This document shows positions 29,080 to 47,131 of a stretch of DNA of 64,000 nucleotides, piece by piece. Where the stretch lies: positions 930,001-994,000 of the forward strand of contig NZ_CP064338.1 of NCBI RefSeq assembly GCF_015476235.1. The letters run 5' to 3'. This stretch comes from Caldimonas thermodepolymerans (GTDB taxonomy: Bacteria; Pseudomonadota; Gammaproteobacteria; Burkholderiales; Burkholderiaceae_C). The notes under the pieces are model-generated. The model was given only the letters and a program-made list of their open reading frames with translations. It ran no database searches and was not told where the DNA came from. Position 1 is the stretch's first letter. Each line of letters starts with the position of its first letter. The translations under genes were made by a program, and so were the position numbers.

Positions 29080-29726
<647 letters not shown>

Positions 29727-29730
<4 letters not shown>

Positions 29731-30407
29731 GATCGGAACAGTCGGGAGTATTGGGTTTCGTGGCGGGACGACAGGATCGCCAGCATCGGCGTGAAGGCCT
29801 GCCGTTGCGTGGCGGGCAGGCGCAGCGCCTGCAACACGGCGTGGGGGATCTCCGCCGCCAGCGCTGCGAGGATGCGCTGGCCGGCGCTCTGGCCGAGCGG
29901 CACGGCCTTGATCGCGGCCTGCACCATGTTCTCCGCCCAGCCGAAGGCATAGGCGAGCAGCGTTTCCTCGGGCGTGGCCTGGGTCTGCGCCGCGGCCAGG
30001 GCGTAGGCGACGGGGTAGGTGGGGGCCGGCTTCAGCGCGGCCAGCACGGCCAGCCGCGCGTCGTCGCTGCGGTTGCGCAGCCACTCGAGCAGCGAGCGGC
30101 CCATCTGCTCGGCCTGCTGGCGCAGCTCGGCCGATTCGCGGGTCCGCACGACCCAGTCGTTCAATGCCGTGATCCGGGCGGCGTCCCCGTCACGCCAGGC
30201 CTCGACGGCCTGGGCCAGCACCGCGAGCTCACCGCGCCCGAGGCCGAGCGCGAGCTGGTCGAGCAGCCAGGCCTGGGCCTGGGCCTCGGAGGTGATGCGG
30301 CCGTGGTCGACGGCGGCTTCCAGTCCTTCGGAGTAGCTGAAGCCGCCCACCGGCAGGGCCGGCGAGGCCAGCCACATCAGCTGCAGCAGCGTCGCGGAGG
30401 AGGTCAT
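29727..30407 (-). CDS. ureF: Urease accessory protein UreF
   Basis: 226 residues, mainly helical. It shows [24 protein letters not shown] near the start (split here), then MGRSLLEWL and [22 protein letters not shown], all typical of UreF. UreF works with UreD and UreG in the complex that loads nickel. It overlaps both ureG and ureE by four bases, so the three are translated together. Confidence 0.94.
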
Positions 30408-31003
30408 CGGTGCTCGTGCTTTCGGCCCGGCGCGTGGTCGTGGTGGTGATGGCCGTGCCCGTGGTCGTGGTCATGTCCGCGACCATGGTCGTGCGCGTGG
30501 CCGTGCCTATGGTCATGCCCGTGTCCATGGCCATGGTGGTGGCCGTGGCCGCCGGCGTACGCGCCGGCCTCGGGTTCGAACGGCGCCTGCGTCTCGGTGA
30601 CGACCAGGTGCATCTGCCGCAGCATGTCGGCCAGCACGTGGTCGGGCTCGAGCTTGAGGTGGTCGGGCTGCAGCTCCAGCTGCACGTGGCGGTTGCCGAG
30701 GTGGTAGGCCGCGCGCAGCAGGTCGAACGGCGAGCCGTGCTCGGTGCAGTGGCGCACCACCAGCACCGGCTGGGGCGCGGCGATCACGCGGACCAGCGAG
30801 CCGTCCTCGGCGACCAGCACGTCGCTGCCTCGCACGACGCTGCCGCGCGGCAGGAACACGCCCAGCGTGCGGCCGGTGCTGTCGGTGGCGTCGAAGCGGC
30901 TCTTCTGGCGCACGTCCCAGTCGAGCTCGACGGTGGCGGCGCGCTTGAGCAGCACGGAGGCCAGGCCCTGGCCCCGGGGCAGGAGTTTGTTGACGGTCAG
31001 CAT
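30404..31003 (-). CDS. ureE: Urease accessory nickel chaperone UreE with histidine-rich tail
   Basis: 199 residues. The peptide-binding and metal-binding domains span about residues 1-145, with the conserved His101 and His106 in [11 protein letters not shown]. From residue 151 the protein is a His/Gly/Asp tail with about 23 histidines in 49 residues, longer than in many UreE proteins and able to bind several nickel ions by analogy with the Klebsiella protein. It lies between ureC and ureF in the operon. Confidence 0.95.
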
Positions 31004-31055
31004 GCGGTTCAGCCTGTCCTGATGGAAGGGCGGGGCCGGGCGGCCCCGCCGGGTG

Positions 31056-32783
<1,728 letters not shown>

Positions 32784-32784
32784 C

Positions 32785-33090
32785 TCACAACGCTCCCTGG
32801 ACTTGTGCACGGAAGCCGTAGACCACGCGGTCGCCAGCGTAATCGACCAGCTCGACGGTGCGCTGCTGGCCGGGTTCGAAACGCACCGCGGTGCCCGAGG
32901 CGATGTTCAGCCGCATGCCGCGCGCGGCCTCGCGGTCGAACTTCAGGGCGCCGTTGGTTTCGGCAAAGTGGTAGTGCGAGCCGACCTGGATCGGCCGGTC
33001 GCCGGTGTTCTCGACCACCAGCGTGATCGTGCGGCGCCCGGGGTTGAGCACGTGGTCGGGGCCGTCGGTGAGCAGTTCGCCCGGAATCAT
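32785..33090 (-). CDS. ureB: Urease subunit beta
   Basis: 101 residues from ATG 33090, preceded by an AGGAGG site. It starts [19 protein letters not shown] and has [17 protein letters not shown] and [14 protein letters not shown], typical of UreB. It packs against UreA and UreC. It lies between hupE and ureC. Confidence 0.97.
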
Positions 33091-33104
33091 CGCGTCCTCC
33101 TGGC

Positions 33105-33707
33105 TCAGCCGAGCAGCATCGGCGCAAGCAGCACCGCCCCGAAACCCGCCACCGCCGCACCGGCGGCGCGGGGCCACCAGGCGCTGCGCGTGCGCACCGC
33201 GGAGCCCGCCGCCATGCCGGCCAGGTGCAGCACGACGGTGCCGGCCAGCATGCCGGCCAGCGCCGCGGCCGCGCCGTCGCCGGCCAGCTCGACGCCGTGT
33301 GCCGCGCCGTGGAACAGCGCGAACAGGCCGACCAGCGCCGCCGCGGCCGCTGCCGGCAGCTGCGGGCGCGCGGCCACCAGCAGCCCGACGGCCACCAGCG
33401 AGGCGGCGATCATCGGCTCGATGGCCGGCACGGCGATGCCGGTCAGGCCCAGCAGGGCGCCGACCAGCAGCATCGCGGCGAACGCCAGGGGGGCGGCCCA
33501 GGGACGGCGGCCGCCCAGCACGCTCCAGAAGCCGATGGCCAGCATCGCGGCCAGGTGGTCCAGCCCGGTGAACGGGTGCGCCAGTCCGGCGGCGAAGCCA
33601 TGATGGACGCCGGCATCGGCGCCGGCATGGGCCCAGGCAGCGCCGCTGGCGAGTGTCAACGCGGCGGCGGCCAGGGACGGCAGGGTCTTGGAGGGGGTCG
33701 TCTTCAT
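33105..33707 (-). CDS. ureJ: HupE/UreJ family membrane protein (probable nickel transporter)
   Basis: 200 residues from the ATG giving [17 protein letters not shown] signal-like N-terminus ends near [10 protein letters not shown], followed by the HupE/UreJ signature [19 protein letters not shown] and about six membrane segments, with [13 protein letters not shown] near the middle. HupE/UreJ proteins are thought to bring nickel into the cell for hydrogenase or urease. Its location between ureA and ureB supports this. Another metal cannot be excluded. Confidence 0.85.
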
Positions 33708-33727: not shown

Positions 33728-33754
33728 TGGTGCGCGATGCACCAAAGTGGTGTC
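33728..33754. promoter_or_regulatory. NtrC-like half-site cluster between hupE and ureA
   Basis: TGCACCAAAGTGGTGTC (33738-33754) matches the enteric NtrC consensus TGCACCA-N3-TGGTGCA at 12 of 14 fixed positions. An extra TGGTGC half at 33728-33733 forms a second inverted repeat with GCACCA at 33739-33744. Binding by NtrC is inference; the repeats themselves are plain in the sequence. Confidence 0.45.
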
Positions 33755-33775
33755 TTTCGTGGAGGTGTGGCGAAG

Positions 33776-34078
33776 TCATGCAATGGGTTGGTGCACGGTC
33801 ACCAACTTGGTGCCATCGGGGAACGTGGCTTCGACCTGGATCTCGGGGATCATTTCGGCGACGCCTTCCATCACGTCGGCGCGCGTGAGCACGGTCTTGC
33901 CCTCGCTCATCAGCTCGGCGACGCTCTTGCCGTCGCGCGCGCCTTCCATGATCGCGGCGGTGATCAGTGCCACCGCCTCCGGGTAATTGAGCTTCAGCCC
34001 GCGGGCCTTGCGGCGCTCGGCCAGCAAGGCGGCGGTGAAGATCAGCAGCTTGTCTTTCTCTCGGGGCGTCAGTTCCAT
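33776..34078 (-). CDS. ureA: Urease subunit gamma
   Basis: 100 residues from ATG 34078 ([21 protein letters not shown]). The [22 protein letters not shown] and [18 protein letters not shown] segments are standard for UreA. It is the first gene of the urease operon and is divergent from the transporter-kinase gene, with 57 bases between the two start codons. Confidence 0.97.
33798..33814. promoter_or_regulatory. Second NtrC-like repeat inside the 3' end of ureA
   Basis: GTCACCAACTTGGTGCC shares the core CACCA-N3-TGGTG with the site at 33738 and lies 60 bases from it, centre to centre. Being within coding sequence, it could be accidental. Confidence 0.3.
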
Positions 34079-34092
34079 GGTCCGTCCTGGCA

Positions 34093-34108
34093 AGGCATCG
34101 AAATTGCG
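34093..34108 (+). promoter_or_regulatory. Sigma-54-like promoter for the transporter-kinase gene
   Basis: AGGCATC-GAAA-TTGCG has the invariant GG and GC of sigma-54 promoters exactly ten bases apart and keeps GGCA and TTGC of the TGGCACG-N4-TTGCW consensus. Transcription would start near 34119, about 17 bases before the ATG at 34136. NtrC-like sites lie some 310-375 bases upstream. Confidence 0.5.
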
Positions 34109-34135: not shown

Positions 34136-37100
34136 ATGCAAAAGATGGACCCGATGACTTCCGCCGCTTCCGCCGCCGTGCCGCCCCCGGCCGGCGAGGC
34201 GCCGCAGCGCGTCATCAAGGTCCGGCGCGACTACAACAGCTGGGTGGCCAGCGAGACGCTGGAGGACTACGCGCTGCGTTTCACGCCGCGCTCGTTCCGG
34301 AAATGGTCGGAGCTGCGCGTCGCGCAGACCGGCTTCGGCGGGGCGGCCTCGTTCCTGGTGCTGGAGGCGGTGGGGGCGACCTTGCTGGTGGAGTACGGCT
34401 TCCTCAACGCCTTCTGGGCCATCATCGCCACCGGCCTGATCATCTTCCTGGCTGGCCTGCCGATCAGCCTGTACGCCGCGCGCCACGGCGTGGACATGGA
34501 CCTGCTGACCCGCGGGGCGGGCTTCGGCTACATCGGCTCGACGATCACCTCGCTGATCTACGCGAGCTTCACCTTCATCTTCTTCGCGCTCGAGGCGGCC
34601 ATCATGGCCTACGCGCTGGAGCTGGCCTTCGACATCCCGCCGGCCTGGGGCTACCTGGTCTGCGCGCTGCTGGTGATCCCGCTGGTCACGCACGGGGTGA
34701 CGATGATCAGCCGGCTGCAGGTGTGGACCCAGCCGCTGTGGCTGGTGCTGCTGGTGCTGCCGTTCGTCTACGTGTTCCGCGAGGAGCCGGACGTGCTGCG
34801 TGGCCTGGTGCAGTACGGCGGCCAGGAGGGCGGGCCGGCGCGCTTCGACCTGCTGCGGTTCGGCGCGGCGATGACGGTGGGCATCGCGCTGATGACGCAG
34901 ATGGGCGAGCAGGCAGACTACCTGCGCTTCATGCCCGAGAAGACCGCGCGCAACCGCGGCCGCTGGTGGGCCGGCGTGCTGCTGGGCGGGCCGGGCTGGG
35001 TGGTGCCGGGCATCGTGAAGATGCTGGGCGGCGCGCTGCTGGCGTACCTGGCGATCAGCCATTCGGTGCCGGTGGACCGCGCGGTCGACCCCAACCAGAT
35101 GTACCTGGTGGCCTACGGCTACGTGTCCTCCAACGTCGGCTGGGCGGTGGCGGCCACCGCGGTGTTCGTCGTGATCTCGCAGCTCAAGATCAACGTCACC
35201 AACGCCTACGCGGGCTCGCTGGCCTGGTCCAACTTCTTCGCGCGCGTCACCCACAGCCACCCGGGGCGGGTCGTGTGGGTGGTGTTCAACACGCTGATCG
35301 CGCTGATGCTGATGGAGCTCAACGTGTTCCAGGCGCTGGGCAAGGTGCTGGGGCTGTACTCCAACATCGCGATCTCGTGGATGATGGCCGTGGTGGCCGA
35401 CCTGGTGGTCAACAAGCCGCTGGGGCTGTCGCCGCCGGGCATCGAGTTCAAGCGCGCGCACCTGTACGACGTGAATCCGGTGGGCGTGGGCGCGATGGGC
35501 ATCGCCTCGGTGCTGTCGGTGGCGGCCAACCTGGGCTACTTCGGCCCGACGCTGGAGGCCTTCTCGGCCCTGATCGCGCTGGTTACCGCCTTCGTCGCGG
35601 CGCCGACCATCGCCTGGCTGACGCGCGGGCGCTACTACCTGGCGCGTCCACCCGAGCCGCCGCAGCCGCAGCGGCAGGGCCTGAAGGCGGTGTACCGCTG
35701 CACCGTCTGCGAGGGCGAGTACGAGCGCGACGACATGGCGCGCTGCCCGGCCTACCAGGGAATGATCTGCTCGCTGTGCTGCTCGCTGGACGCGCGCTGC
35801 CACGACCTGTGCAAGTCGCACGCGCACTGGTCGGCGCAATGGCTGGCCGCGGCGAAGGCGCTGCTGCCGCGGCCGGTGTGGGCGCGGCTGAACACCGAGC
35901 TGGGGCACTTCCTGCTGCTGATGATGGCCATCGTGCCGGCGCTCGGGGTGCTGCTGATGCTGGTGTACCACCAGGAGCTGCGCGGGCTGGGGCCGAGTGC
36001 CGCCGAGCTGGAGCCGGTGCTGCGGCTGGCCTTCGTGAAGGTGTATGCGGCGCTGGTGGTGGTCAGCGGCGTGGTCGCGTGGTGGCTGGTGCTGGCGCAC
36101 AAGAGCCGCCAGGTCGCGCAGGAGGAATCCAACCGCCAGACGCACCTGCTGATGCGCGAGATCGAGTCGCACCGCCGCACCGACGAGCAGCTGCAGCAGG
36201 CCAAGCGCCAGGCCGAGCAGGCCAACCAGGCCAAGAGCCGCTACATCTCGGCGATCAGCCACGAGCTGCGCACGCCGCTCAACAGCATCCTGGGCTATGC
36301 GCAGCTGCTCGACGAGGATGCCAGCCTGCCGCCGCACCGCCGCCAGGCCGTGACCGTGATCCGCCGCGCCGGCGACCACCTGCTGTCGCTGATCGAGGGC
36401 ACGCTGGACATTGCCCGCATCGAAAGCGGCAAGCTGACGCTGGAGGTGCGGCCGATGCGTTTTGCCGAGTGCGTGCAGCAGATCGCGCGCATGTTCGAGC
36501 TGCAGGCCGCGGGCAAGGGCATCGCCTTCGAGACCGAGTTCGTCGGCACGGTGCCCGAGGTGGTGCGCGCCGACGAGAAGCGGCTGCGCCAGATCCTGCT
36601 CAACGTGCTGGGCAACGCGGTCAAGTTCACGCGCACCGGGCGGGTGGTGTTCCGCCTGAAGTACGCGCGCGAGATCGCGCTGTTCGAGATCGAGGACACC
36701 GGCCCCGGCATCGCGCCGGAGGAGATCGGCCGCATCTTCGAGCCCTTCGCGCGCGGCTCGGCCGCCGGCACCGGCCCGAGCGGCGGCACCGGCCTGGGCC
36801 TGACGATCAGCAAGATGCTTACCGACCTGATGGGCGGCGAGATGACGGTCAGCAGCGAGGTCGGGCGCGGCACGCTGTTCCGCATCCGCCTGTTCCTGCC
36901 GCAGCTGCACGCGGCGGTGGCCGAGCAGGTGCTGCCGCCGCCGCGCACCGGCTACCTCGGCGCGCGCCGCCGCATCCTGGTGGTCGACAACGAGGAGGAC
37001 GACCGCGGCCTGCTGCTGCACCTGCTGCAGCCGCTCGGCTTCGAGCTGGCGCAGGCCGAAAGCGGCGACGCGTGCCTGGCGCTGCTGCGCCGCGGCGACT

Positions 37101-37609
37101 TCGCGCCGGACGCGATCTTCATGGACCTCGCGATGCCCGGCATCGACGGCTGGGAAACGATCCGCACCATCCGCCGCGAGGGGCTGAGCGACGCGCATGT
37201 CGCGATCGTCTCGGCCAATGCCTTCGACCAGGGGCTGGACAACGACGTCGGCATCACGCCGGCCGACTTCTTCGTCAAGCCGGTGCGCATCGGCGAGCTG
37301 CTCGACTGGCTCGGCCGGCGGCTGCAGCTCGAGTGGACCGAGGCGCCGCGGGTGGAGGGGCCGGGCGCACCCGCCCCCGCGGCCGCCGCGCAGCCGGTGG
37401 TGCCGCCGGAGCCCAGGCTGCTTGCCCTGCAGGAGGCGATCGACCTCGGCTACTTCCGCGGCATCCTGAAACTGCTCGACGAGATCGAGGCCGAAGATGC
37501 GCGCCATGCCCCCTTCGTGCAACGCCTGCGCGAGCTGGCCCGGCAGTTCCAGCTCGACGCGATGACCCACGTCCTGAGACAGGCCCGCCATGACCGTCTT
37601 GCTGCCTGA
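34136..37609 (+). CDS. NCS1-type transporter fused to hybrid histidine kinase
   Basis: 1157 residues from ATG 34136; ATGs at 34145 and 34154 are alternatives. Residues about 35-500 resemble nucleobase-cation symporter-1 permeases (EDYALRFTPRSFRKWSEL, then about 12 membrane helices). Residues 522-564 hold eight cysteines (CTVC, CSLCC, CHDLC) plus histidines, a probable metal-binding segment. Two more helices, a coiled stretch, and a HisKA domain with His709 (ISHELRTPLNSILGYAQLL) follow. The ATPase domain has N-box RQILLNVLGNAVKF and GGTGLGLTISKML. A receiver has Asp997, and a helical tail ends the protein. It probably senses a substrate of its transporter part and signals to the overlapping response-regulator gene. 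Confidence 0.88.
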   Translation: MQKMDPMTSAASAAVPPPAGEAPQRVIKVRRDYNSWVASETLEDYALRFTPRSFRKWSELRVAQTGFGGAASFLVLEAVGATLLVEYGFLNAFWAIIATGLIIFLAGLPISLYAARHGVDMDLLTRGAGFGYIGSTITSLIYASFTFIFFALEAAIMAYALELAFDIPPAWGYLVCALLVIPLVTHGVTMISRLQVWTQPLWLVLLVLPFVYVFREEPDVLRGLVQYGGQEGGPARFDLLRFGAAMTVGIALMTQMGEQADYLRFMPEKTARNRGRWWAGVLLGGPGWVVPGIVKMLGGALLAYLAISHSVPVDRAVDPNQMYLVAYGYVSSNVGWAVAATAVFVVISQLKINVTNAYAGSLAWSNFFARVTHSHPGRVVWVVFNTLIALMLMELNVFQALGKVLGLYSNIAISWMMAVVADLVVNKPLGLSPPGIEFKRAHLYDVNPVGVGAMGIASVLSVAANLGYFGPTLEAFSALIALVTAFVAAPTIAWLTRGRYYLARPPEPPQPQRQGLKAVYRCTVCEGEYERDDMARCPAYQGMICSLCCSLDARCHDLCKSHAHWSAQWLAAAKALLPRPVWARLNTELGHFLLLMMAIVPALGVLLMLVYHQELRGLGPSAAELEPVLRLAFVKVYAALVVVSGVVAWWLVLAHKSRQVAQEESNRQTHLLMREIESHRRTDEQLQQAKRQAEQANQAKSRYISAISHELRTPLNSILGYAQLLDEDASLPPHRRQAVTVIRRAGDHLLSLIEGTLDIARIESGKLTLEVRPMRFAECVQQIARMFELQAAGKGIAFETEFVGTVPEVVRADEKRLRQILLNVLGNAVKFTRTGRVVFRLKYAREIALFEIEDTGPGIAPEEIGRIFEPFARGSAAGTGPSGGTGLGLTISKMLTDLMGGEMTVSSEVGRGTLFRIRLFLPQLHAAVAEQVLPPPRTGYLGARRRILVVDNEEDDRGLLLHLLQPLGFELAQAESGDACLALLRRGDFAPDAIFMDLAMPGIDGWETIRTIRREGLSDAHVAIVSANAFDQGLDNDVGITPADFFVKPVRIGELLDWLGRRLQLEWTEAPRVEGPGAPAPAAAAQPVVPPEPRLLALQEAIDLGYFRGILKLLDEIEAEDARHAPFVQRLRELARQFQLDAMTHVLRQARHDRLAA

Positions 37610-38549
37610 ACCCGCCATCCGCATCGACCGCAGTGCGAGCGACGTGGTGCTGATCGTCGACGACGTCCCCGACAACCTGTCGGTGCTGCACGACGCGCTG
37701 GACGAATCCGGCTACACGGTGCTGGTCGCCACCAACGGCGACGGCGCCCTGCAGCGCGCCGCCCAGGCCGTGCCGGACATCATCCTGCTCGACGCGGTGA
37801 TGCCCGGCATGGACGGCTTCGAGGTGGCGCGCCGCCTCAAGGCGCAGCCCGAGACGGCGCACATCCCCATCGTCTTCATGACCGGCCTGACCGAGACCGA
37901 GCACGTGGTGGCCGCCTTCCAGGCCGGCGGCGTGGACTATGTCACCAAGCCGATCAAGCCCAAGGAAGTGCTGGCGCGCATCACCACCCACGTGCAGGGG
38001 GCACGGCTGGCGCGCCAGGCGCGCAACGCGCTGGACGCCTTCGGCCACGCGACCATGGTGGTGCGCCTGGCCGACGGGCGCGTGGTCTGGCAGACGCCGC
38101 TGGCGCGCCGCTTCCTGCAGGACTACCTGGGCTGCGCCGAGCCCGTGGTGCCGGCCTCGGTGCTCGAGTGGGTGCGCGCGCACGCGGCGGCGCCGGCCGG
38201 GGCGCAGGAGCCGCCGAAGATGAGCATCGTGCAGGGGCCGCGCCGGCTGGTGCTGGCGCTGCACGAGCCGACCGGCGACGACGAATGGCTGCTGGTGATG
38301 CGCGAGACCTCGGACGCCGCCGCGATCGAGGCGCTGACGCACGCCTTCCGGCTCACGGCCCGCGAGGCCGAGGTGCTGTACTGGGTGGTCAAGGGCAAGA
38401 CCAACCGCGACATCGCCGACATCCTCGGCGCCAGCCCCGCGACGGTGAAGAAGCACCTGGAGCACGTGTTCGAGAAGCTGGGCGTGGAGACGCGCACCGC
38501 GGCCGCGGGCCTGGCGATCAGCCGGGTGGGGCAGCTGGGGCACCGCTAG
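37590..38549 (+). CDS. Response regulator with receiver and LuxR-type HTH
   Basis: 319 residues. The receiver (about 18-135) has DD at 24-25, the phospho-acceptor Asp68 in IILLDAVMPGMDGFEV and the Lys in DYVTKPIKPKE. A middle region (about 140-245) looks like a small PAS-like sensor. The C-terminus has a LuxR/FixJ HTH (LTAREAEVLYWVVKGKTNRDIADILG, split, then SPATVKKHLEHVFEKLGV). It starts 20 bases inside the kinase gene, so the two form a cognate pair. Likely targets are the flanking ure or urt operons; see the palindrome at 41107. Confidence 0.9.
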   Translation: MTVLLPEPAIRIDRSASDVVLIVDDVPDNLSVLHDALDESGYTVLVATNGDGALQRAAQAVPDIILLDAVMPGMDGFEVARRLKAQPETAHIPIVFMTGLTETEHVVAAFQAGGVDYVTKPIKPKEVLARITTHVQGARLARQARNALDAFGHATMVVRLADGRVVWQTPLARRFLQDYLGCAEPVVPASVLEWVRAHAAAPAGAQEPPKMSIVQGPRRLVLALHEPTGDDEWLLVMRETSDAAAIEALTHAFRLTAREAEVLYWVVKGKTNRDIADILGASPATVKKHLEHVFEKLGVETRTAAAGLAISRVGQLGHR

Positions 38550-38639
38550 GGCCGCCGCGCCGGCGCCGGCCCCACAATGCCGCCAGGACCGTGACCGCTT
38601 CCCCCCGGTCGTTCTGCCGATGCGTCGCACCTCCGTGCC

Positions 38640-39861
38640 ATGGATGCCCTGATCGCCGCTGCGGCCCGCGCGCTGGCCGCGGGCGACGTGCTGGGCGCGC
38701 TGCAGCGCGTGGCGCTGCGCGAGGCGCCGGCGGCGCTGGCCCTGCGCGGCATCGCGATGGCGCAGCTGGGCGAGTACGCACGCTCGCGCGAGCTGCTGCG
38801 CCGTGCGGCCCGGGCCTTCGGTGCCCGCGAGGCGCTGGCGCGGGCGCGTTGCGTGGTGGCCGAGGCCGAGGTGGCGCTGGCGATGCGCGACCTGGCCGGT
38901 GCCCCGCGCACGCTGGCGGCGGCCGTCGCGGTGCTGGAGGCGCACGGCGACCGCGCCAACGCCTTGCAGGCGCGCCTGGTCGCGTTGCGGCGCCTGCTGC
39001 TGCTCGGCCGGCTGGTGCCTGCGGCGCAGGCCCTGGCCGCGCTCGACCTGCGCGGCGCCCCGCCGGCGCTGCTCGCGGTGGCCGAGCTGGCAGCCGCCGA
39101 GCTGGCCTTGCGGGGCCTGCGTCCTGCGGTGGCGCAGGCGGCCCTGGCGCGGGCCGAGGCCGCCGCGCAGCGCGCCGGCATCGTCGCCTTGCAGCGCGAG
39201 GTTGCCGCTGCCAGGGCGGCGCTGGAGCATCCTGCGGCGCGCCGCGTGCAGGCCGGGGAAGAGCAGCCCTTGCGGCTGGCCGAGGTGGTTGGCGTGGATG
39301 GCTTCCGACGCGCTGGTGGTCGACGGCTGCCGGCGTGCCGTGGTCGTGGGCGGTCGCCGGGTGTCGCTTGCGCGCCGGCCGGTGCTGTTCGTGCTGCCGC
39401 AGGCGCTGGCGCGCGCCTGGCCGGGCGATGTCGACCGGCGCGTGCTGATCGAGGCGGCATTCCGGCTGCGCGATCCCGACGCGACACATCGCGCCCGGCT
39501 GCGCGTGGAGATCGGCCGGCTGCGGGCGCTGGTGGCCGGGCTGGCCGGCATCGAGGCCACCGCGCGGGGCTACCGCTGGCAGCCGCCGGCCGGGCGCGAG
39601 GTCGTGCTGCTGGCCCCGCCGGTCGACGGGGCGCAGGGCGCGCTGCTGGCCCTGCTGGCCGACGGGATGGCCTGGTCCACGTCGGCGCTGGCGCTGGCCA
39701 CGGGGCGCAGCCAGCGCAGCGTGCAGTGCGCGCTGGCGGAGCTGGCCGCCGCCGGCCGGGTGCATGCGGCAGGGCAGGCCCGCGCGCGGCGCTGGCTGGC
39801 GCCGGGGCCGGCGGGTTTCGCGACGATCTTGTTACTCCCGGTCGTGGCGTCGCCTGACTAG
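38640..39861 (+). pseudogene. HTH regulator gene broken by an apparent one-base insertion
   Basis: The first frame (38640 to about 39287) encodes an Ala/Leu/Arg-rich helical-repeat protein starting MDALIAAAARALAAGDVLGAL. Its continuation switches to the +1 frame at about 39288. From there SDALVVDGCRRAV runs on to LRVEIGRLRALVAGLAGIEA and a winged-helix-like AWSTSALALATGRSQRSVQ segment, ending at 39861. Removing one G in GGTGGTTGG near 39285-39291 would join both halves as LAEVLAWMASDALVVDG. Either the gene is inactivated or the assembly has an error. Intact relatives look like transcription regulators with a repeat domain. Confidence 0.7.
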
Positions 39862-39918
39862 AGTGGCCGTGACGGGCACGCCGACGGGCGGCGTGCCGCA
39901 GCCCTGAAGGAGCAGGCC

Positions 39919-40584
39919 ATGACCCTCGACACCTCACTGGATGCCACCGTGCCGACCGCCGAGATCGTGCGCGAGTACGGACCTTTCCCCGACGCCGACG
40001 GCGTGCACGGCGTCTCGTACGACGGCCGGTGCATCTGGGCCGCGTTGGGCACCGCGCTGGTGGCCGTCGACCCGCACAGCGGAGACGTCGTCCGCACGCT
40101 GGAGCGGGCCTGCCGCGCCGGCACCGCGTACGACGGCCGGCACCTCTACCAGATCCACGGCACGCGCATCGACAAGATCGACCCGCAGACCGGCGAGGTG
40201 TGCGCCTCCATCCCGACGCCGGGCCCCGACAACTCGGGGCTGGCCTGGGCCGAAGGCAGCCTGTGGCTGGGGCAGTGGAGCGAGCGCCGCATCCTGCAGC
40301 TCGACCCGCAGACCGGGCGCGTGCTGCGCACCATCGAGTCCGACCGCTACGTCACCGGCGTGACCTGGGTCGACGGCGAGCTGTGGCACGGCACCTGGGA
40401 AGGCGAGGCCAGCGACCTGCGCCGCGTCGATCCCGCCACCGGCGAGGTCGTCGAGCGCGTGCAGATGCCGGCGGGCACCGGCGTCAGCGGGCTGGAGGCC
40501 GACGGCAACGGGCTGTTCTATTGCGGCGGCGGTCCCAGCGGCATGGTGCGGGCGGTGCGCCGCCCGCAGCGCCGGCGCGCCTGA
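39919..40584 (+). CDS. Beta-propeller protein, glutamine cyclotransferase/YncE-like
   Basis: 221 residues without a signal peptide. Repeated blades can be seen: GVSYDGRCIWAALGTALVAVDPHSG, HGTRIDKIDPQTGEV, GSLWLGQWSERRILQLDPQTG and GELWHGTWEG followed by RRVDPATGEV (first item split in two parts here). Each ends in a VDP-type turn. This suits a small beta-propeller related to glutaminyl cyclotransferase-like or quinoprotein-like proteins. Activity and ligand are unknown. A ribosome-binding site (AAGGAG) precedes it, and it lies just after the broken regulator, which may have controlled it. Confidence 0.7.
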   Translation: MTLDTSLDATVPTAEIVREYGPFPDADGVHGVSYDGRCIWAALGTALVAVDPHSGDVVRTLERACRAGTAYDGRHLYQIHGTRIDKIDPQTGEVCASIPTPGPDNSGLAWAEGSLWLGQWSERRILQLDPQTGRVLRTIESDRYVTGVTWVDGELWHGTWEGEASDLRRVDPATGEVVERVQMPAGTGVSGLEADGNGLFYCGGGPSGMVRAVRRPQRRRA

Positions 40585-40591
40585 GCGGCGT

Positions 40592-41017
40592 TCAGGGCTG
40601 CTCCCCGCCCGTCGCGGCAGGCGGCTGGCGGCGGATCACCAGCTCGGGGTGGCCGGTCGCATGGTCCATCATGCGCCGGAACTCCCATTCCGGCAGCAGC
40701 CCGAGCAGCACCTCGGCGGTGGTGCGCACGGTGCAGCCCGGTGCGACATGGCCGCCGATGACGCGGCCGTCGGCCAGCGCGATCGTCGCGTGCAGGTGCG
40801 ACTCGCGGTCGGAGAGGCTGCCGGCCAGCGTGAGGACCTCGATCGGCCCCTCGAAGGTGTCCGGCCGCTCCCTGCCGGCCAGGCGCAGCTGCGCGCCCGA
40901 CAGGCTGCCGATGCCCGACAGCACGAAGGCCGCGCGTGCACCCTCCACCGCGAGCGCGGCTTCCAGGGCCCGGCGCAGGTCCTGGCCGGGGCTCAGGCGT
41001 AGCGGTAGTGTCTCCAT
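40592..41017 (-). CDS. PPC/DUF296 domain protein
   Basis: 141 residues, a single PPC (DUF296) domain. FVLSGIGSLSGAQLRL, FEGPIEVLTLAGSLSD and LADGRVIGGHVAPGCTV match the pattern found in plant AT-hook proteins and bacterial stand-alone PPC proteins. Bacterial versions form trimers; their role is poorly known, and without an AT-hook this one need not bind DNA. It converges on the propeller gene (7-base gap) and points away from urtA. Confidence 0.82.
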   Translation of the reverse strand: METLPLRLSPGQDLRRALEAALAVEGARAAFVLSGIGSLSGAQLRLAGRERPDTFEGPIEVLTLAGSLSDRESHLHATIALADGRVIGGHVAPGCTVRTTAEVLLGLLPEWEFRRMMDHATGHPELVIRRQPPAATGGEQP

Positions 41018-41106
41018 GGGCCCACAGGGTAGCCGATCCCGGCGCGTTTGCCACCCTCCAGATCAACCCGGCGCCATCCGGCGGTGGCCATCGCCTTCGC
41101 CCGGCC

Positions 41107-41122
41107 TACGCCACTTGGCGTA
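41107..41122 (+). promoter_or_regulatory. Palindrome upstream of urtA, candidate activator site
   Basis: TACGCC-ACTT-GGCGTA is a perfect inverted repeat in the 223-base gap before urtA. A possible -10 (TAACCT, 41146-41151) would place the palindrome near position -42, where LuxR-type activators overlap the -35 element. The adjacent response regulator has such an HTH. The regulator-site match is inference. Confidence 0.45.
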
Positions 41123-41240: not shown

Positions 41241-42518
41241 ATGAGCCTTTCCCGCCGCAGCGTCGTCAAGACGCTTTCCGCCGTCGCCCTCGGCGTGGCT
41301 GCCCTCGGCCTGCCGTCGGCTTATGCCGCCGACACGATCAAGGTCGGCATCCTGCACTCGCTGTCCGGCACGATGGCGATCTCCGAGACCGTGCTGAAGG
41401 ACGTCGCGCTGATGACCATCGAGGAAATCAACGCGCAAGGCGGGGTGCTCGGCAAGAAGCTGGAGCCGGTGGTGGTCGACCCGGCGTCCAACTGGCCGCT
41501 GTTCGCCGAGAAGGCCAAGCAGCTGATCTCCCAGGACAAGGTCGCCGTCGTGTTCGGCTGCTGGACCAGCGTCTCGCGCAAGTCCGTGCTGCCGGTGTTC
41601 GAGGAGCTCAACGGTCTGCTGTTCTACCCGGTGCAGTACGAAGGCGAGGAGTTGTCCAAGAACGTCTTCTACACCGGCGCCGCGCCCAACCAGCAGGCCA
41701 TTCCCGCGGTCGAGTACCTGATGAGCAAGGACGGCGGCTCGGCCAAGCGCTTCGTGCTGCTGGGCACCGACTACGTCTACCCGCGCACGACGAACAAGAT
41801 CCTGCGTGCCTTCCTGAAGTCCAAGGGCATCCCCGACGAGGACATCATGGAGGAGTACACCCCGTTCGGCCACAGCGACTACCAGACCATCATCGCCAAG
41901 ATCAAGAAGTTCGCCTCCGAAGGCAAGAAGACCGCGGTGGTCTCGACGATCAACGGCGACTCCAACGTGCCGTTCTACAAGGAGCTGGGCAACCAGGGCC
42001 TGAAGGCCACCGACGTGCCGGTGGTGGCGTTCTCCGTGGGCGAGGAAGAGCTGCGCGGCGTGGACACCAAGCCGCTGGTCGGCCACCTGGCGGCATGGAA
42101 CTACTTCATGAGCGTCAAGAACCCGACCAACGACGAGTTCATCAAGAAGTGGAGCGCCTACGCCAAGGCCAAGAACATCCCGGGCCACAAGGACAAGCCG
42201 CTGACCAACGACCCGATGGAAGCCACCTACATCGGCATCCACATGTGGAAGCAGGCGGTCGAGAAGGCCCAGAGCACCGACACCGACAAGGTGATCGCCG
42301 CGATGGCCGGCCAGACCTTCAAGGCGCCGTCGGGATTCGTCGCCAAGATGGACGAGAAGAACCACCACCTGCACAAGCCGGTGTTCATCGGCGAGGTCAA
42401 GGCCGACGGCCAGTTCAACATCGTCTGGAAGACCAAGGGCCCGATCAAGGCCCAGCCGTGGAGCCCGTACATCCCCGGCAACGAGAAGAAGAAGGACGAG
42501 CCCGAGAAGGCGCTCTGA
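41241..42518 (+). CDS. urtA: Urea ABC transporter, substrate-binding protein UrtA
   Basis: 425 residues. An RR-containing signal peptide (MSLSRRSVVKTLSAVALGVA) is followed by a type I binding fold: IKVGILHSLSGTMAISET, VVFGCWTSVSRKSVLPVFEE, LLFYPVQYEGEELSKNVFYTG and YVYPRTTNKILRAFLKSKG. These are highly characteristic of UrtA. It captures urea in the periplasm for UrtBCDE. The ATG has a CAGGAG site. Hairpins follow the gene, consistent with higher expression of the binding protein than of the permeases. Confidence 0.97.
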   Translation: MSLSRRSVVKTLSAVALGVAALGLPSAYAADTIKVGILHSLSGTMAISETVLKDVALMTIEEINAQGGVLGKKLEPVVVDPASNWPLFAEKAKQLISQDKVAVVFGCWTSVSRKSVLPVFEELNGLLFYPVQYEGEELSKNVFYTGAAPNQQAIPAVEYLMSKDGGSAKRFVLLGTDYVYPRTTNKILRAFLKSKGIPDEDIMEEYTPFGHSDYQTIIAKIKKFASEGKKTAVVSTINGDSNVPFYKELGNQGLKATDVPVVAFSVGEEELRGVDTKPLVGHLAAWNYFMSVKNPTNDEFIKKWSAYAKAKNIPGHKDKPLTNDPMEATYIGIHMWKQAVEKAQSTDTDKVIAAMAGQTFKAPSGFVAKMDEKNHHLHKPVFIGEVKADGQFNIVWKTKGPIKAQPWSPYIPGNEKKKDEPEKAL

Positions 42519-42597: not shown

Positions 42598-42640
42598 TCG
42601 GCCACGGACCCGGTACGAGTCGTTGCTGAGGGACCCGAGA

Positions 42641-44263
42641 GTGAGATTCCCCCCTTCCTGGATGCGGCTGGGCGCCGCCTTGCTGTGGCTGTCGTGCCTG
42701 CTGGCCGGCGCCGGCACGGCCCGGGCCCTGACGCCCGAACAGGTCCGGGTGCTGGCCACCGGCGACAACGATGAACGCATCGAGGTGCTCAATGCAGCGG
42801 TGGCGGCGGCCGATCCGGCGCTGCAGCCGCTGGTCGAGGCGCTGCTCGGCGACGAGGTGAAGACCTCCGGCGAGCAGGTCTACATCGTGCGCGGCGATGC
42901 GGTCACCGATGCCGTGACCGGCGCGCCGGCGACGCTGCCCGACGACGCCGAGGACGTGGTCAACAGCAACCGCATGCGCCGTGCGTTGCAGGGCGCGCTG
43001 GCGGGGCTGAAGCTGCTGTCGACGCAGGTCGACGAGCGCCGCCGCGCGGTCGCGCAGTTGCGCGACGACCTGGACGAGGAGCAGCTGCCGCTGATCGAGC
43101 GCGCCTACCAGGCCGAGACCGATGCCGGCCTGAAGGACGAGCTGGCGCGGCTGAGGGCCACGCTGCTGATCGCCTCCGACGACAGGGCGCAGCGGCTGGA
43201 GGCTGCGCAGGCGCTGGGCGGCAGCGCCCAGCCCGCGGTCAAGTCGCTGCTGCTGGCGCGGCTGGCCCGCGAGGGCGACGCCTACGTCGAGCCTGACGCC
43301 GAGGTGCGTGCGGCGCTGCAGGCGTCGTTGCGCGCGGTCGAGTCGCGCCTGGCATGGGGCGAGCGGCTGGGCGTGGTGTTTTCCGGCGTCAGCCTGGGCT
43401 CCATCCTGCTGCTGGTCGCGCTGGGCCTGGCCATCACCTACGGGCTGATGGGCGTGATCAACATGGCGCATGGCGAGCTGATGATGATCGGCGCCTATGC
43501 GACCTACGTGGTGCAGAACCTGTTCCGCGCGTACCTGCCGGCGGCCTGGTTCGACTGGTACATCGTCGCCGCGGTGCCGGTGGCGTTTGCCGCCTCCTTC
43601 GCCGTGGGCGCGGTGCTCGAGCGCAGCGTGATCCGCTGGCTGTACGGCCGCCCGCTCGAGACGCTGCTGGCGACCTGGGGCATCAGTCTGGTGCTGATGC
43701 AGGCCGTGCGTTCGATCTTCGGCGCGCAGAACGTGCAGGTCGAGAACCCGTCATGGCTGAGCGGCGGCGTCAGCGTGATGAGCAACCTCACGCTGCCGTA
43801 CAACCGCATCGCGATCATCGCGTTTGCCGGCCTCGTGCTGCTGGGCGTGACGCTGCTGATCGCGCGCACCCGCCTGGGCCTGTTCGTGCGCGGCGTGACG
43901 CAGAACCGCCCGATGGCCGCCTGCATGGGCGTCAACACCGCCCGCGTGGACATGTACGCCTTCGCGCTCGGCGCCGGCATCGCCGGCCTGGCGGGCTGTG
44001 CGCTGTCCCAGGTCGGCAACGTGGGGCCGGACCTCGGCCAGAGCTACATCGTCGATTCCTTCCTGGTGGTCGTGACCGGCGGGGTCGGCCAGCTGGCCGG
44101 CACGGTCTACGCCGCGCTGGGCCTGGGCGTGATCAACAAGATCCTCGAGGGCTGGCAGGGCGCGGTGCTCGCCAAGATCATGGTGCTGCTGTTCATCGTC
44201 GCCTTCATCCAGAAGCGGCCGCAGGGGCTGTTCGCGATGAAGGGTCGCAGCGCGGAGGCATGA
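42641..44263 (+). CDS. urtB: Urea ABC transporter permease UrtB
   Basis: 540 residues from GTG 42641, which has a GAGGGA site; ATG 42662 is the alternative. A signal peptide and a helical extracytoplasmic domain (about residues 30-240) precede the LivH-like permease. The permease has GVSLGSILLLVALGLAITYG, MGVINMAHGELMMIGAYATY and LATWGISLVLMQAVRSIFG. The long N-terminal extension is a regular feature of UrtB. It pairs with UrtC to form the channel. Confidence 0.94.
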   Translation: MRFPPSWMRLGAALLWLSCLLAGAGTARALTPEQVRVLATGDNDERIEVLNAAVAAADPALQPLVEALLGDEVKTSGEQVYIVRGDAVTDAVTGAPATLPDDAEDVVNSNRMRRALQGALAGLKLLSTQVDERRRAVAQLRDDLDEEQLPLIERAYQAETDAGLKDELARLRATLLIASDDRAQRLEAAQALGGSAQPAVKSLLLARLAREGDAYVEPDAEVRAALQASLRAVESRLAWGERLGVVFSGVSLGSILLLVALGLAITYGLMGVINMAHGELMMIGAYATYVVQNLFRAYLPAAWFDWYIVAAVPVAFAASFAVGAVLERSVIRWLYGRPLETLLATWGISLVLMQAVRSIFGAQNVQVENPSWLSGGVSVMSNLTLPYNRIAIIAFAGLVLLGVTLLIARTRLGLFVRGVTQNRPMAACMGVNTARVDMYAFALGAGIAGLAGCALSQVGNVGPDLGQSYIVDSFLVVVTGGVGQLAGTVYAALGLGVINKILEGWQGAVLAKIMVLLFIVAFIQKRPQGLFAMKGRSAEA

Positions 44264-44382
44264 GCATGCGCACCTCCTGCGACCACATGCTGCCGCACGG
44301 TGCGGCTACCCGCGTGATCCCCCACCCGACCCGGGCGTTCCTCCTGCCGCGACGCCCTGCCCTGAATGGAGTGCCTGCATGA
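44260..44382 (+). CDS. Possible 40-residue linker ORF between urtB and urtC
   Basis: An ORF of 40 codons starts in an ATGA overlap with the urtB stop and ends in an ATGA overlap with the urtC start, with GGAGGC just upstream. The product (MSMRTSCDHMLPHGAATRVI onward) has no recognisable domain. Its role may be only to carry ribosomes across the 115-base gap. Whether the peptide is made or conserved is unknown. Confidence 0.35.
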   Translation: MSMRTSCDHMLPHGAATRVIPHPTRAFLLPRRPALNGVPA

Positions 44383-45545
44383 GCGCCGTCCTTCCGACGC
44401 CGACCTCCACACCGACCCTGTCGATGCCGGCTGCCCGCCGCCCGTCCTTCCTCGGCGCGCGGGGCCGCATCGGCCTGCTGGCGGCGCTGATCGCCGTCAC
44501 CGTCGTCGTGCCCGTGCTCAACCTGGCGGTGGCGCCGGGCAGCGCGCTGCACCTGCCCGAGTACTACGTGACCCTGATCGGCAAGATCATGTGCTACGCG
44601 ATCTGCGCGCTGGCGATGGACCTGATCTGGGGTTACACCGGCATCCTGTCGCTGGGCCACGGCCTGTTCTTCGCGCTGGGCGGCTACGGCATGGGCATGT
44701 ACCTGATGCGCCAGATCGGCCGGGACGGCAACTACCAGTCGGACCTGCCGGACTTCATGGTCTTCCTCGACTGGAAGGAACTGCCCTGGCACTGGGCGCT
44801 GAGCGATTCCTTCGTCGCACAGATGCTGCTGGTGGTGCTGGTGCCGGGGCTGCTGGCCTTCGTGTTCGGCTATTTCGCGTTCCGCTCGCGCATCAAGGGC
44901 GTGTACTTCTCGATCATCACGCAGGCGATGACGTTCGCCGCGATGCTGCTGTTCTTCCGCAACGAGACCGGCTTCGGCGGCAACAACGGCTTCACCGACT
45001 TCAAGCGCATCCTCGGCATCCCGATCGCCACCCCGACCACGCGCGTGGCGCTGTTCGTGATCACCGGGCTGACGCTGATCGGCTGCTACCTGCTCGCGCG
45101 CTGGCTGGTCAACACCAAGTACGGGCGCGTGCTGCAGGCGATCCGCGATGCCGAGTCGCGCGTGATGTTCTCCGGCTACGACCCGCTCTGGTACAAGCTG
45201 AGCATCTGGGTGATCTCGGCGGTGATGTGCGCGATCGCGGGTGCTTTGTACGTGCCGCAGGTCGGCATCATCAACCCGAGCGAGATGTCGCCGGCCGCGA
45301 GCATCGAGATCGCGATCTGGACCGCGGTGGGAGGGCGCGCGACGCTGATCGGCCCGATCGTCGGCGCTTTCTTCGTCAACGGCGCCAAGAGCTGGTTCAC
45401 CGTGGCGTTCCCCGAGTTCTGGCTGTACTTCCTCGGCGCGCTGTTCATCGCGGTGACGCTGTTCCTGCCGCAGGGCATCGTCGGGCTGTTCCGTCAGCGG
45501 CGCCGCGACGACGACGCGCAAGCAGGCAAGGAGGAGCGGGCATGA
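44379..45545 (+). CDS. urtC: Urea ABC transporter permease UrtC
   Basis: 388 residues with about ten membrane segments of the LivM type. Characteristic stretches are MDLIWGYTGILSLGHGLFFALGGYGMGMY (split in use), NETGFGGNNGFTDFKRILG and AVGGRATLIGPIVGAFFVNG. It is the second permease subunit for urea. Its stop overlaps the urtD start by four bases. Confidence 0.95.
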   Translation: MSAVLPTPTSTPTLSMPAARRPSFLGARGRIGLLAALIAVTVVVPVLNLAVAPGSALHLPEYYVTLIGKIMCYAICALAMDLIWGYTGILSLGHGLFFALGGYGMGMYLMRQIGRDGNYQSDLPDFMVFLDWKELPWHWALSDSFVAQMLLVVLVPGLLAFVFGYFAFRSRIKGVYFSIITQAMTFAAMLLFFRNETGFGGNNGFTDFKRILGIPIATPTTRVALFVITGLTLIGCYLLARWLVNTKYGRVLQAIRDAESRVMFSGYDPLWYKLSIWVISAVMCAIAGALYVPQVGIINPSEMSPAASIEIAIWTAVGGRATLIGPIVGAFFVNGAKSWFTVAFPEFWLYFLGALFIAVTLFLPQGIVGLFRQRRRDDDAQAGKEERA

Positions 45546-46432
45546 CCCCCGAACTGATGGAGCAGGGCGCCCGGCTGCGCCGCCGGCACGAGGCCCGCGA
45601 GGCCGGGCTGCAGGGCTCGGGCGACCGCGGGGCGAGCTACGGCCGCGTGGTGCGGCCCGGCGAGGTGGACACGGCGCACGGCGCGATCCTGTACCTGGAG
45701 GACATCACGGTCAGCTTCGACGGCTTCCGCGCGCTGAACCGGCTGTCGCTGAGCATCAGCGCCGGCGAGCTGCGCTGCATCATCGGGCCCAACGGCGCGG
45801 GCAAGACCACGATGATGGACGTCATCACCGGCAAGACCCGCCCCGACGAGGGCAAGGCCTGGTTCGGCTCGACCATCGACCTGCTGCGCCTGCGCGAAAG
45901 CGAGATCGCGCAGATCGGCATCGGCCGCAAGTTCCAGAAGCCCACCGTCTACGAGCAGCTGACGGTGTTCGAGAACCTGGAGCTGGCGCTCAAGGCCGAC
46001 CGGCGCGTGCGCGCGTCGATGTTCTCGCGCCTCGGCGGTGAGCAGCTCGACCGAATCGGCGAGGTGCTGGCGCTGATCCACCTGAAGGACCACGCGCAGC
46101 GCACCGCGGGCAACCTCTCGCACGGCCAGAAACAGTGGCTGGAGATCGGCATGCTGCTGATGCAGGACCCCAAGCTCCTGCTGCTGGACGAGCCGGTGGC
46201 CGGCATGACCGACGAGGAAACCGAGCGCACCGCGGAGCTGTTCCTCTCGCTCGAGGGCAGCCACTCGCTGGTGGTGGTCGAGCACGACATGAAGTTCATC
46301 GGCGAGCTGACGCAAGGCGGCCGCAACGGCAAGCGCGTGACGGTGCTGCACGAGGGCAGCGTGCTGGCCGAAGGGACGCTGGCCGACGTGCAGGCCAACG
46401 AGAAGGTCGTCGAGGTCTACCTGGGCAGGTGA
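45542..46432 (+). CDS. urtD: Urea ABC transporter ATPase UrtD
   Basis: 296 residues. After a roughly 45-residue charged N-terminal extension comes a LivG-type ATPase: Walker A GPNGAGKTTMMDVITG, signature NLSHGQKQWLEIGMLL, Walker B LLLLDEPVAGMT and the switch histidine in VVVEHDMKFI. It is one of the two energising subunits. It overlaps urtC and lies six bases before urtE. Confidence 0.95.
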   Translation: MTPELMEQGARLRRRHEAREAGLQGSGDRGASYGRVVRPGEVDTAHGAILYLEDITVSFDGFRALNRLSLSISAGELRCIIGPNGAGKTTMMDVITGKTRPDEGKAWFGSTIDLLRLRESEIAQIGIGRKFQKPTVYEQLTVFENLELALKADRRVRASMFSRLGGEQLDRIGEVLALIHLKDHAQRTAGNLSHGQKQWLEIGMLLMQDPKLLLLDEPVAGMTDEETERTAELFLSLEGSHSLVVVEHDMKFIGELTQGGRNGKRVTVLHEGSVLAEGTLADVQANEKVVEVYLGR

Positions 46433-46438
46433 GCCATC

Positions 46439-47131
46439 ATGCTGAAAGTCGAAGGCGTCAACCAGTATTACGGCGGCTCGCACATCCTGCGCGACGTGAG
46501 CCTGGACGCGAAACAGGGTGAGGTCACGGTGATCCTCGGGCGCAACGGCGTGGGCAAGACCACGCTGCTCAAGAGCCTGATGGGGCTGGTGCCGGTCAAG
46601 ACCGGCACGATCACGCTCGACGGCCAGCCCATCACGCGCGACACGCCCTACGAGCGGGTGCGCAAGGGCATCGGCTACGTGCCGCAGGGGCGCGAGATCT
46701 TCGGCCGCCTGACGGTGGAGGAGAACCTGCGCATGGGGCTGGCCTACAAGCCGGCCAGCACGCCGATCCCGGCGGAGCTGTACGAGCTGTTCCCGGTGCT
46801 CAAGCAGATGCTGCATCGCCGGGGCGGCGACCTCTCAGGCGGCCAGCAGCAGCAGCTCGCGATTGCGCGCGCGCTCGCGGCCGGCCCCAAGCTGCTGATC
46901 CTGGACGAGCCGACCGAGGGCATCCAGCCCTCCATCATCAAGGACATCGGCCGCGTGATCCGCATGCTGGCCGACCGCGGCGACATGGCCATCGTGCTGG
47001 TCGAGCAGTACTACGACTTCGCCGCCGAGCTGGCCGACCAGTACCTGGTGATGGAGCGCGGCGAGGTGATCCGGCGCGGGCGCGGCAAGGACATGGAAGC
47101 CGACGGCGTGCGGCGCCTGATGTCGATCTGA
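46439..47131 (+). CDS. urtE: Urea ABC transporter ATPase UrtE
   Basis: 230 residues of the LivF type: it starts MLKVEGVNQYYGGSHILRDV, with Walker A GRNGVGKTTLLKSLMG, signature LSGGQQQQLAIARAL, Walker B LLILDEPTEGIQPSII and LVEQYYDFAAELADQY. The EGIQPSII motif is typical of UrtE. It ends the urtABCDE operon. Confidence 0.96.
   Translation: MLKVEGVNQYYGGSHILRDVSLDAKQGEVTVILGRNGVGKTTLLKSLMGLVPVKTGTITLDGQPITRDTPYERVRKGIGYVPQGREIFGRLTVEENLRMGLAYKPASTPIPAELYELFPVLKQMLHRRGGDLSGGQQQQLAIARALAAGPKLLILDEPTEGIQPSIIKDIGRVIRMLADRGDMAIVLVEQYYDFAAELADQYLVMERGEVIRRGRGKDMEADGVRRLMSI

Follow-up and report, generated by a model that had tools for sequence, protein, structure and literature searches.

The stretch analyzed here, a 64,000-nucleotide window of the Caldimonas thermodepolymerans genome (NZ_CP064338.1, positions 930,001 to 994,000; the genome is a single contig of 3.86 Mb), encodes a transporter-type hybrid sensor kinase (34136..37609, forward strand, 1157 amino acids on translation) located between the urease genes and the genes for the urea importer UrtABCDE. 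We computed the architecture of this protein, its predicted fold, its conservation, its genomic linkage, and a promoter palindrome together with the co-occurrence of that palindrome with the kinase. On this basis, we consider it probable that the kinase is a transceptor-type urea receptor that signals through a LuxR-type response regulator and the palindrome to switch on urtABCDE. According to the proposed mechanism, a permease domain of NCS1 fold, located in the inner membrane, would bind, and may carry, urea, and its conformational change would be relayed to the kinase via a segment with eight cysteines and a pair of additional hydrophobic helices. The kinase would then phosphorylate the co-encoded regulator, either directly or via its own receiver, and the regulator would bind TACGCCA-NN-TGGCGTA before urtA and turn on the high-affinity importer. 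The ligand, the direction of signaling, DNA binding by the regulator, activation rather than repression, and nitrogen control are the parts of this mechanism that we infer. A paralogous clade would have the same role at fmd/ami operons, with formamide or another short amide as the ligand.

Architecture of the sensor kinase and its regulator

An earlier note, made from the letters of the DNA, described a single gene fusing an NCS1-type permease, an eight-cysteine segment, a histidine kinase, and a receiver, overlapping a LuxR-type regulator gene, divergent from ureA, and upstream of urtABCDE. Domain searches and coordinates confirmed this arrangement. Translation may begin at the ATG at 34136, 34145, or 34154. 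The NCS1-fold permease domain (34256..35629, residues ~41-498) is followed on the same strand by the eight-cysteine segment (35699..35812, C522 to C559), two long helices (35897..36202, hydropathy maxima at residues 601 and 645), of which the second extends toward HisKA, a HisKA plus HATPase_c kinase core (36230..36898, His709), and a receiver (36974..37306, Asp997). HisKA, HATPase_c, and the receiver all scored above the Pfam cut-offs, identifying a hybrid histidine kinase, and H709 and D997 are kept in all 164 aligned kinase rows (163 distinct, as L098 and L141 are one contig). The cognate regulator (37590..38549, forward strand) starts within the last codons of the kinase gene, which ends at 37609, and combines a receiver (PF00072, E 7e-29) with a LuxR/GerE DNA-binding domain (PF00196, E 1e-17). 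Across 151 rows, its Asp24, Asp25, Thr98, and Lys120 are each retained in 149 to 151, and the acceptor Asp68 was assigned by reading the LLDA stretch. Two relatives (L226 and L228) are members of ~890 residues, seemingly too short for a receiver, with FmdA encoded downstream at both loci. Two diverged members of ~1400 residues (L179 and L181) have no linked urea or amide genes, and the longer C-terminus of L181 carries an HTLKG stretch that is Hpt-like by eye.

The window protein (E up to 1), its permease part taken by itself (E up to 10), and 27 relatives (E up to 1) gave no match to PF02133, and sequence searches of Pfam, NCBIfam, and the PDB returned nothing useful for the permease part. 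Because these direct searches were uninformative, fold comparison and profile chains were used. A profile of the sensor permease matched L230 (E 4e-33), which in turn matched PF02133 (E 3.6e-9), and it also matched L001 (E 1.3e-6), an NCS1 protein of the same genome that matches the hydantoin carrier Mhp1 (E 5e-48). The best fold matches of the predicted structure are the cytosine carrier CodB, at the top, and Mhp1, with 14 to 18% identity to the permease domain, placing it in the NCS1 fold and substantiating the assignment in the earlier note; an SLC5 (SSF) carrier domain was not found in the window kinase. The L230 locus (L230:8953-13377) encodes a free-standing NCS1 permease, a distant relative of the sensor domain, preceding CN_hydrolase (amidase/nitrilase) and Peripla_BP_5 genes, and this permease is a candidate short-amide carrier.

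CodB and Mhp1 are free-standing sodium-coupled carriers, and their aligned sodium-site and substrate residues differ from those of the sensor permease. Pocket residues were mapped to the functional residues of Mhp1 through the L001 alignment. Glu153 (163 of 164 rows) aligns to Mhp1 Gln121, and Lys351 (K351, 164 of 164 rows) aligns to Ser312 of the sodium site. Trp117, Trp220, and Asn318, which together with Gln121 contact hydantoin in Mhp1, are replaced by Phe, Leu, and Ala, respectively. In an amide-linked free-standing permease, the alignment places Glu at the Gln121 position and Arg at the Ser312 position. As alignment evidence, these substitutions suggest a remodeled, small pocket and a loss of sodium coupling, the invariant K351 at the sodium-site position speaking against such coupling. 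An aspartate (urea) versus glutamate (amide) at residue 318 was considered as a specificity position; Asp is present in two nested urea-linked groups, yet the split is not significant, because six amide loci carry Asp and only 4 independent pairs fall on starred branches.

It is conceivable that the protein is a true transporter reporting permease flux or an ion gradient rather than occupancy. NCS1 proteins are carriers; sodium coupling is made doubtful by K351, and coupling to protons would be conceivable. Among known transporter-kinases, CbrA is reported to import histidine and to have a lysine in its Na2 site, parallel in kind to K351 (PMC13022988, preprint), and Ks-Amt5 is said to bind without translocating (PMC5764959). 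Taken together, we regard a flux sensor as unlikely and continue to favor a receptor that responds to occupancy.

None of the eight cysteines in the segment between permease and helices varies across the 164 aligned rows, the amide-linked ones included. The structure model shows short strands and a helix. Of 70 members, 6 match Prok-RING_1 weakly, the best at E 0.002, and the window copy itself has no family match. The stretch 35651-36193, which contains the cysteine segment and the two long helices, had no Pfam match in a library for which the presence of a STAC model was not confirmed. For this segment, which the earlier note took as a possible metal or redox switch, strict cysteine conservation together with the weak RING-like match favors a structural, zinc-type fold, and we read it as a structural, probably zinc-bound coupling element. 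In the class, the segment was found in 14 of 229 genomes (15 places), in frames of more than 1000 residues except for a 661-residue frame in G704 and a short fragment in G823. The invariance of the cysteines, a nearby UreJ-like gene, and the nickel requirement of urease could also point to a kinase that senses nickel or zinc through this segment for the metal supply of urease; we consider this highly improbable, given that the cysteines are equally invariant in amide-linked rows, most of whose loci lack urease within 9 kb, and that the RING-type match suggests a structural role. A permease-less relative (L231:8857-10713) keeps several of the segment cysteines, hydrophobic helices, kinase, and receiver; a similar regulator gene faces this kinase, and a neighbor looks like an iron-type alcohol dehydrogenase on reading of the translations.

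Linkage to urea and short-amide genes

Kinases of this type occur in numerous bacteria of soil and water. In a sample of 300 genomes from the order, 53 gave a match to the permease-Cys part, although for 3 of the 53 the matches are weak free-standing NCS1 ones alone. In a sample of 398 genomes from the phylum, the profile matched in 55, and in 3 of these the matching pieces are all short or lack the permease. The genomic context of the best 80 loci, from Caldimonas, Rhizobacter, Variovorax, Hydrogenophaga, Zoogloea, Azonexus, and others, was then examined in flanks of up to 10 kb, some shorter. A regulator match was present in 77 of the 80 loci and adjoined the kinase in 74; ureA was present in 56 and urtA in 30 (29 at ≥60% identity). 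A further 91 loci were drawn from the order and phylum samples, of which 88 contain a regulator match, 25 urease genes, 15 UrtA (≥60% identity), 54 FmdA or AmiE, and 78 one or more of the urease, UrtA, FmdA, and AmiE genes. The linkage to urea genes withstood the check across relatives that the earlier note had named as able to refute it. Urease beta was found in 48 of 50 kinase-bearing genomes (absent from G061 and G068) versus 78 of 250 others, with 123 of the 126 urease matches in this comparison above the cut-off.

Named neighbor clusters comprise FmdA_AmdA, Zn_ribbon_8 (FmdB-like), CN_hydrolase (AmiE-like), Peripla_BP_5, BPD_transp_2, ABC_tran, and urease parts, and no purine or ureide catabolism gene was found among the 16 largest. 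Because the linked loci carry urea and short-amide genes and none of the named clusters is of the purine or ureide kind, the probable ligand is narrowed to urea or short amides; of the ligands suggested in the earlier note, urea is retained, and purines and ureides are disfavored. The permease could in principle sense a ureide or pyrimidine (allantoin, hydantoin, or uracil) that yields urea or amides, with urease and Urt merely downstream. The structural match to CodB and the Mhp1-like protein of the same genome would suit such a sensor; the composition of the neighbor clusters and the replacement of all four hydantoin contacts of Mhp1 considered here, including Gln121 by Glu, speak against it, making it quite unlikely.

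A quick maximum-likelihood tree of 114 kinase rows contains a supported clade of 50 rows that is mostly amide-linked and nested among urea-linked rows. Within this clade, two groups are again at urt or ure genes, and one small group outside it has urease and FmdA together. The partner pathway thus seems to have switched several times between urea and short amides, as urea-linked groups are nested inside a mostly amide-linked clade, although the number of switches is not firm because the tree has long branches and some of its forks are open. Three genomes (L137/L161, L138/L171, and L186/L191) have one kinase copy linked to urea genes and another linked to amide genes.

In the window, ureA (urease gamma, 33776..34078, reverse strand, PF00547 E 4e-49) is divergent from the kinase gene, with its start codon at 34076-34078, and the remaining urease cluster, encoding a UreJ-like protein and ureB, ureC, ureE, ureF, and ureG by family searches, follows on the same strand (29080..33670). 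On the forward strand, urtA (41241..42518) encodes the urea ABC binding protein (TIGR03407, 604.9 bits, G000:C1:971337-972464), and urtB, urtC, urtD, and urtE (42623..47131) match PF02653 twice and PF00005 twice, in the same order as in relatives. The regulator and urtA are separated by a 2.7 kb gap (38550-41100), and in some relatives urtA adjoins the regulator. ORFs in this gap belong to no clear family, with a weak TPR match and, for 39919-40584, beta-propeller-type matches.

A palindrome before urtA and probable control by nitrogen status

The sequence TACGCCACTTGGCGTA (41107..41122, no strand assigned, centered ~126 bp before urtA) is proposed as the putative binding site of the co-encoded regulator. 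The full palindrome, TACGCCA-NN-TGGCGTA, consists of two half sites of 7 bases each, separated by 2 bases, a 7-2-7 spacing known for NarL-type regulators. At 44 kinase-bearing loci with urtA (43 distinct promoters, L098 and L141 being one contig), TACG-N8-CGTA was found upstream of urtA in 40 (39 of the 43 distinct promoters), compared with 0.3 expected from resampled sequence, and the 40 copies are centered 65 to 145 bp upstream of the start codon. The window copy is the sole mismatch-free match in its genome, which has no match at one mismatch.

The palindrome was absent from all 40 urtA promoters of genomes of the order without the kinase and was not found at urtA in any of 11 genomes with only an amide-type kinase. 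A further 9 genomes examined here carry a urea-type kinase, and in 7 of them the palindrome stands at urtA. Six of these 9 have urtA at least 60 kb off or on a separate contig, with the palindrome present in 4; two of the 4, G111 and G205, show no such nitrogen gene at the kinase locus. Of 52 amide loci, 39 carry the palindrome in a promoter zone, namely that of a kinase, binding-protein, FmdA, or AmiE gene, and these zones account for 51 of its 55 copies. All flanks together (3.30 Mb) contain 111 copies, of which 19 have no retained gene start nearby and 6 are near unnamed ORFs. Position 5 of the half site is C in 50 of 80 urtA half sites and T in 69 of 106 amide half sites, and where both kinds of site occur in one genome (L137/L161 and L309/L171) this position is mostly C versus T, respectively; the recognition-helix region of the regulator is similar in the urea and amide groups. 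The palindrome is a predicted site of this regulator, and it could instead belong to another urt/fmd regulator that merely co-occurs with the kinase. Its absence from kinase-lacking genomes and from urtA of amide-only genomes, its presence at far-away urtA genes, and the spacing that suits NarL-type regulators make this very unlikely, as does the parallel of CrbR, the LuxR-type partner of another transporter-kinase, which is reported to require an inverted repeat (PMC5715377).

The earlier note suggested that the kinase may set both urease and Urt expression. Control of Urt is likely, and the sole mismatch-free palindrome is at urtA; for direct control of urease in this genome, a regulator site was sought in the ureA-kinase gap of the window and was not found. 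A weaker copy (score ≥5) is present in 14 of 59 ureA-kinase gaps (0.1 expected), the window not included. With the mismatch-free site at urtA alone and no copy in this gap, the regulator's direct target here is more likely the Urt importer than urease.

A weak sigma-54-like element (34093..34108, forward strand, 8 of 11 consensus positions) precedes the kinase gene. Elements with at least 9 of 11 positions stand ahead of the kinase gene in 93 of 167 cases (shuffles 7.0) and ahead of ureA in 57 of 79 (shuffles 3.5); a sigma-54 promoter of urtA was found in 1 of 44 (shuffles 1.6), not beyond chance. Since an element precedes the kinase gene in many relatives, kinase expression is probably nitrogen-controlled. 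This fits a two-tier logic in which nitrogen status would set kinase and urease expression, and the kinase would add the substrate signal at urtA. Three NtrC-like palindromes (TGCACCA-N3-TGGTGCA, 2 to 3 mismatches) are located at the ureA 3' end and just beyond (33738-33814), and the window holds 9 matches to this pattern versus 3.7 expected.

A number of observations weigh against the favored explanation. Pfam identified no Hpt domain in the kinase. The palindrome is missing from 4 of 43 distinct urtA promoters (L077, L218, L221, and L223, the last three clustering in the tree), from the distant urtA of G047 and G091, and from the tested zones of 13 of 52 amide loci, and the shuffled controls resample first-order transitions alone. 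Allowing two mismatches gives 11 sites in the genome, not above chance (a backward control pattern gives 76 a strand), and allowing three gives 1 match in the window versus 1.89 expected, so exactness and position alone speak for the window site. No urease, UrtA, FmdA, or AmiE is linked at 13 of 91 sample loci; 9 of these are clipped by a contig end, and L139, L142, L179, and L181 are not. Chance linkage would be a few percent at most, an estimate from genome size alone, and the counts are not independent events because the species are related. The sigma-54 elements of the window itself are weak (8 of 11), those of many relatives being stronger, and at part of the amide loci the sigma-54 test gives a weaker result (7 of 24 loci with fmdA and ABC genes, 14 of 18 with fmdA, amiE, and ABC genes). 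The opposite strand also scores as sigma-54 in 49 of 167 kinase and 41 of 79 ureA cases, as expected because divergent genes share the gap, so the kinase and ureA counts are not independent.

Relation to known transporter-kinases

Transporter-kinases are already known with SLC5-STAC modules (CbrA, CrbS, and RpuS) and with an Amt module (Ks-Amt5). CbrA/CbrB of Pseudomonas likewise joins a transporter of LeuT-type fold to a histidine kinase and ties nutrient sensing to uptake genes (PMC13022988); it has an SLC5 carrier, STAC and PAS domains, histidine as its nutrient, and a sigma-54-dependent regulator, whereas the window system has an NCS1 fold, an eight-cysteine segment with two long helices, and a LuxR-type regulator. 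CrbS/CrbR (MxtR/ErdR, acetate) is the closest of these in logic: a hybrid transporter-kinase is paired with a LuxR-type regulator that acts through an imperfect inverted repeat upstream of genes for uptake and utilization, a motif not found where CrbS/R is missing (PMC5715377); it differs in its SLC5-STAC module, in acetate, and in its repeat (TACTACCATCGTCGAAT at acs). RpuS/RpuR, in which a transporter-kinase controls the carrier of its own substrate (PMC9100948), differs in its SLC5-STAC module, a direct repeat, and pyruvate. Ks-Amt5 is likewise a nitrogen-compound carrier turned sensor of a histidine kinase (PMC5764959), with an Amt/Rh carrier module and ammonium instead.

The present family is set apart from these by its type of carrier, its coupling element, the inferred ligand, and the DNA site. 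UrtABCDE and FmdDEF-type importers, together with urease or FmdA, are its partner genes, effectors rather than sensors. AmiC/AmiR controls amidase without a histidine kinase. Among the papers listed in literature searches whose scope excluded most subscription journals, none concerned an NCS1-type sensor kinase or a urea/amide two-component system of this kind, and none a membrane receptor kinase that recognizes urea or formamide. A broader proposal, whose chances we judge evenly balanced, is that NCS1-fold kinases form a previously undescribed family of specific receptors for the smallest amides (urea, formamide, and their kin) across Proteobacteria. In such a family, the invariant cation-site lysine would have abolished sodium coupling, yielding a ligand-gated switch; the eight-cysteine domain, in our samples almost exclusive to this architecture, would couple it to the kinase; and the regulator would recognize one conserved 7-2-7 palindrome, present at urt or fmd promoters according to the partner pathway of the sensor in each clade.

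Sensing the presence of urea would benefit the bacteria that use it, and such sensors could double as urea biosensors. If the favored explanation is true, transceptor signaling would extend from SLC5 to a second carrier family of LeuT fold and acquire a new coupling element, and the nitrogen-source receptor would be testable through a single promoter site. The urea-linked and amide-linked clades would provide a natural comparison of how one fold discriminates urea from formamide.

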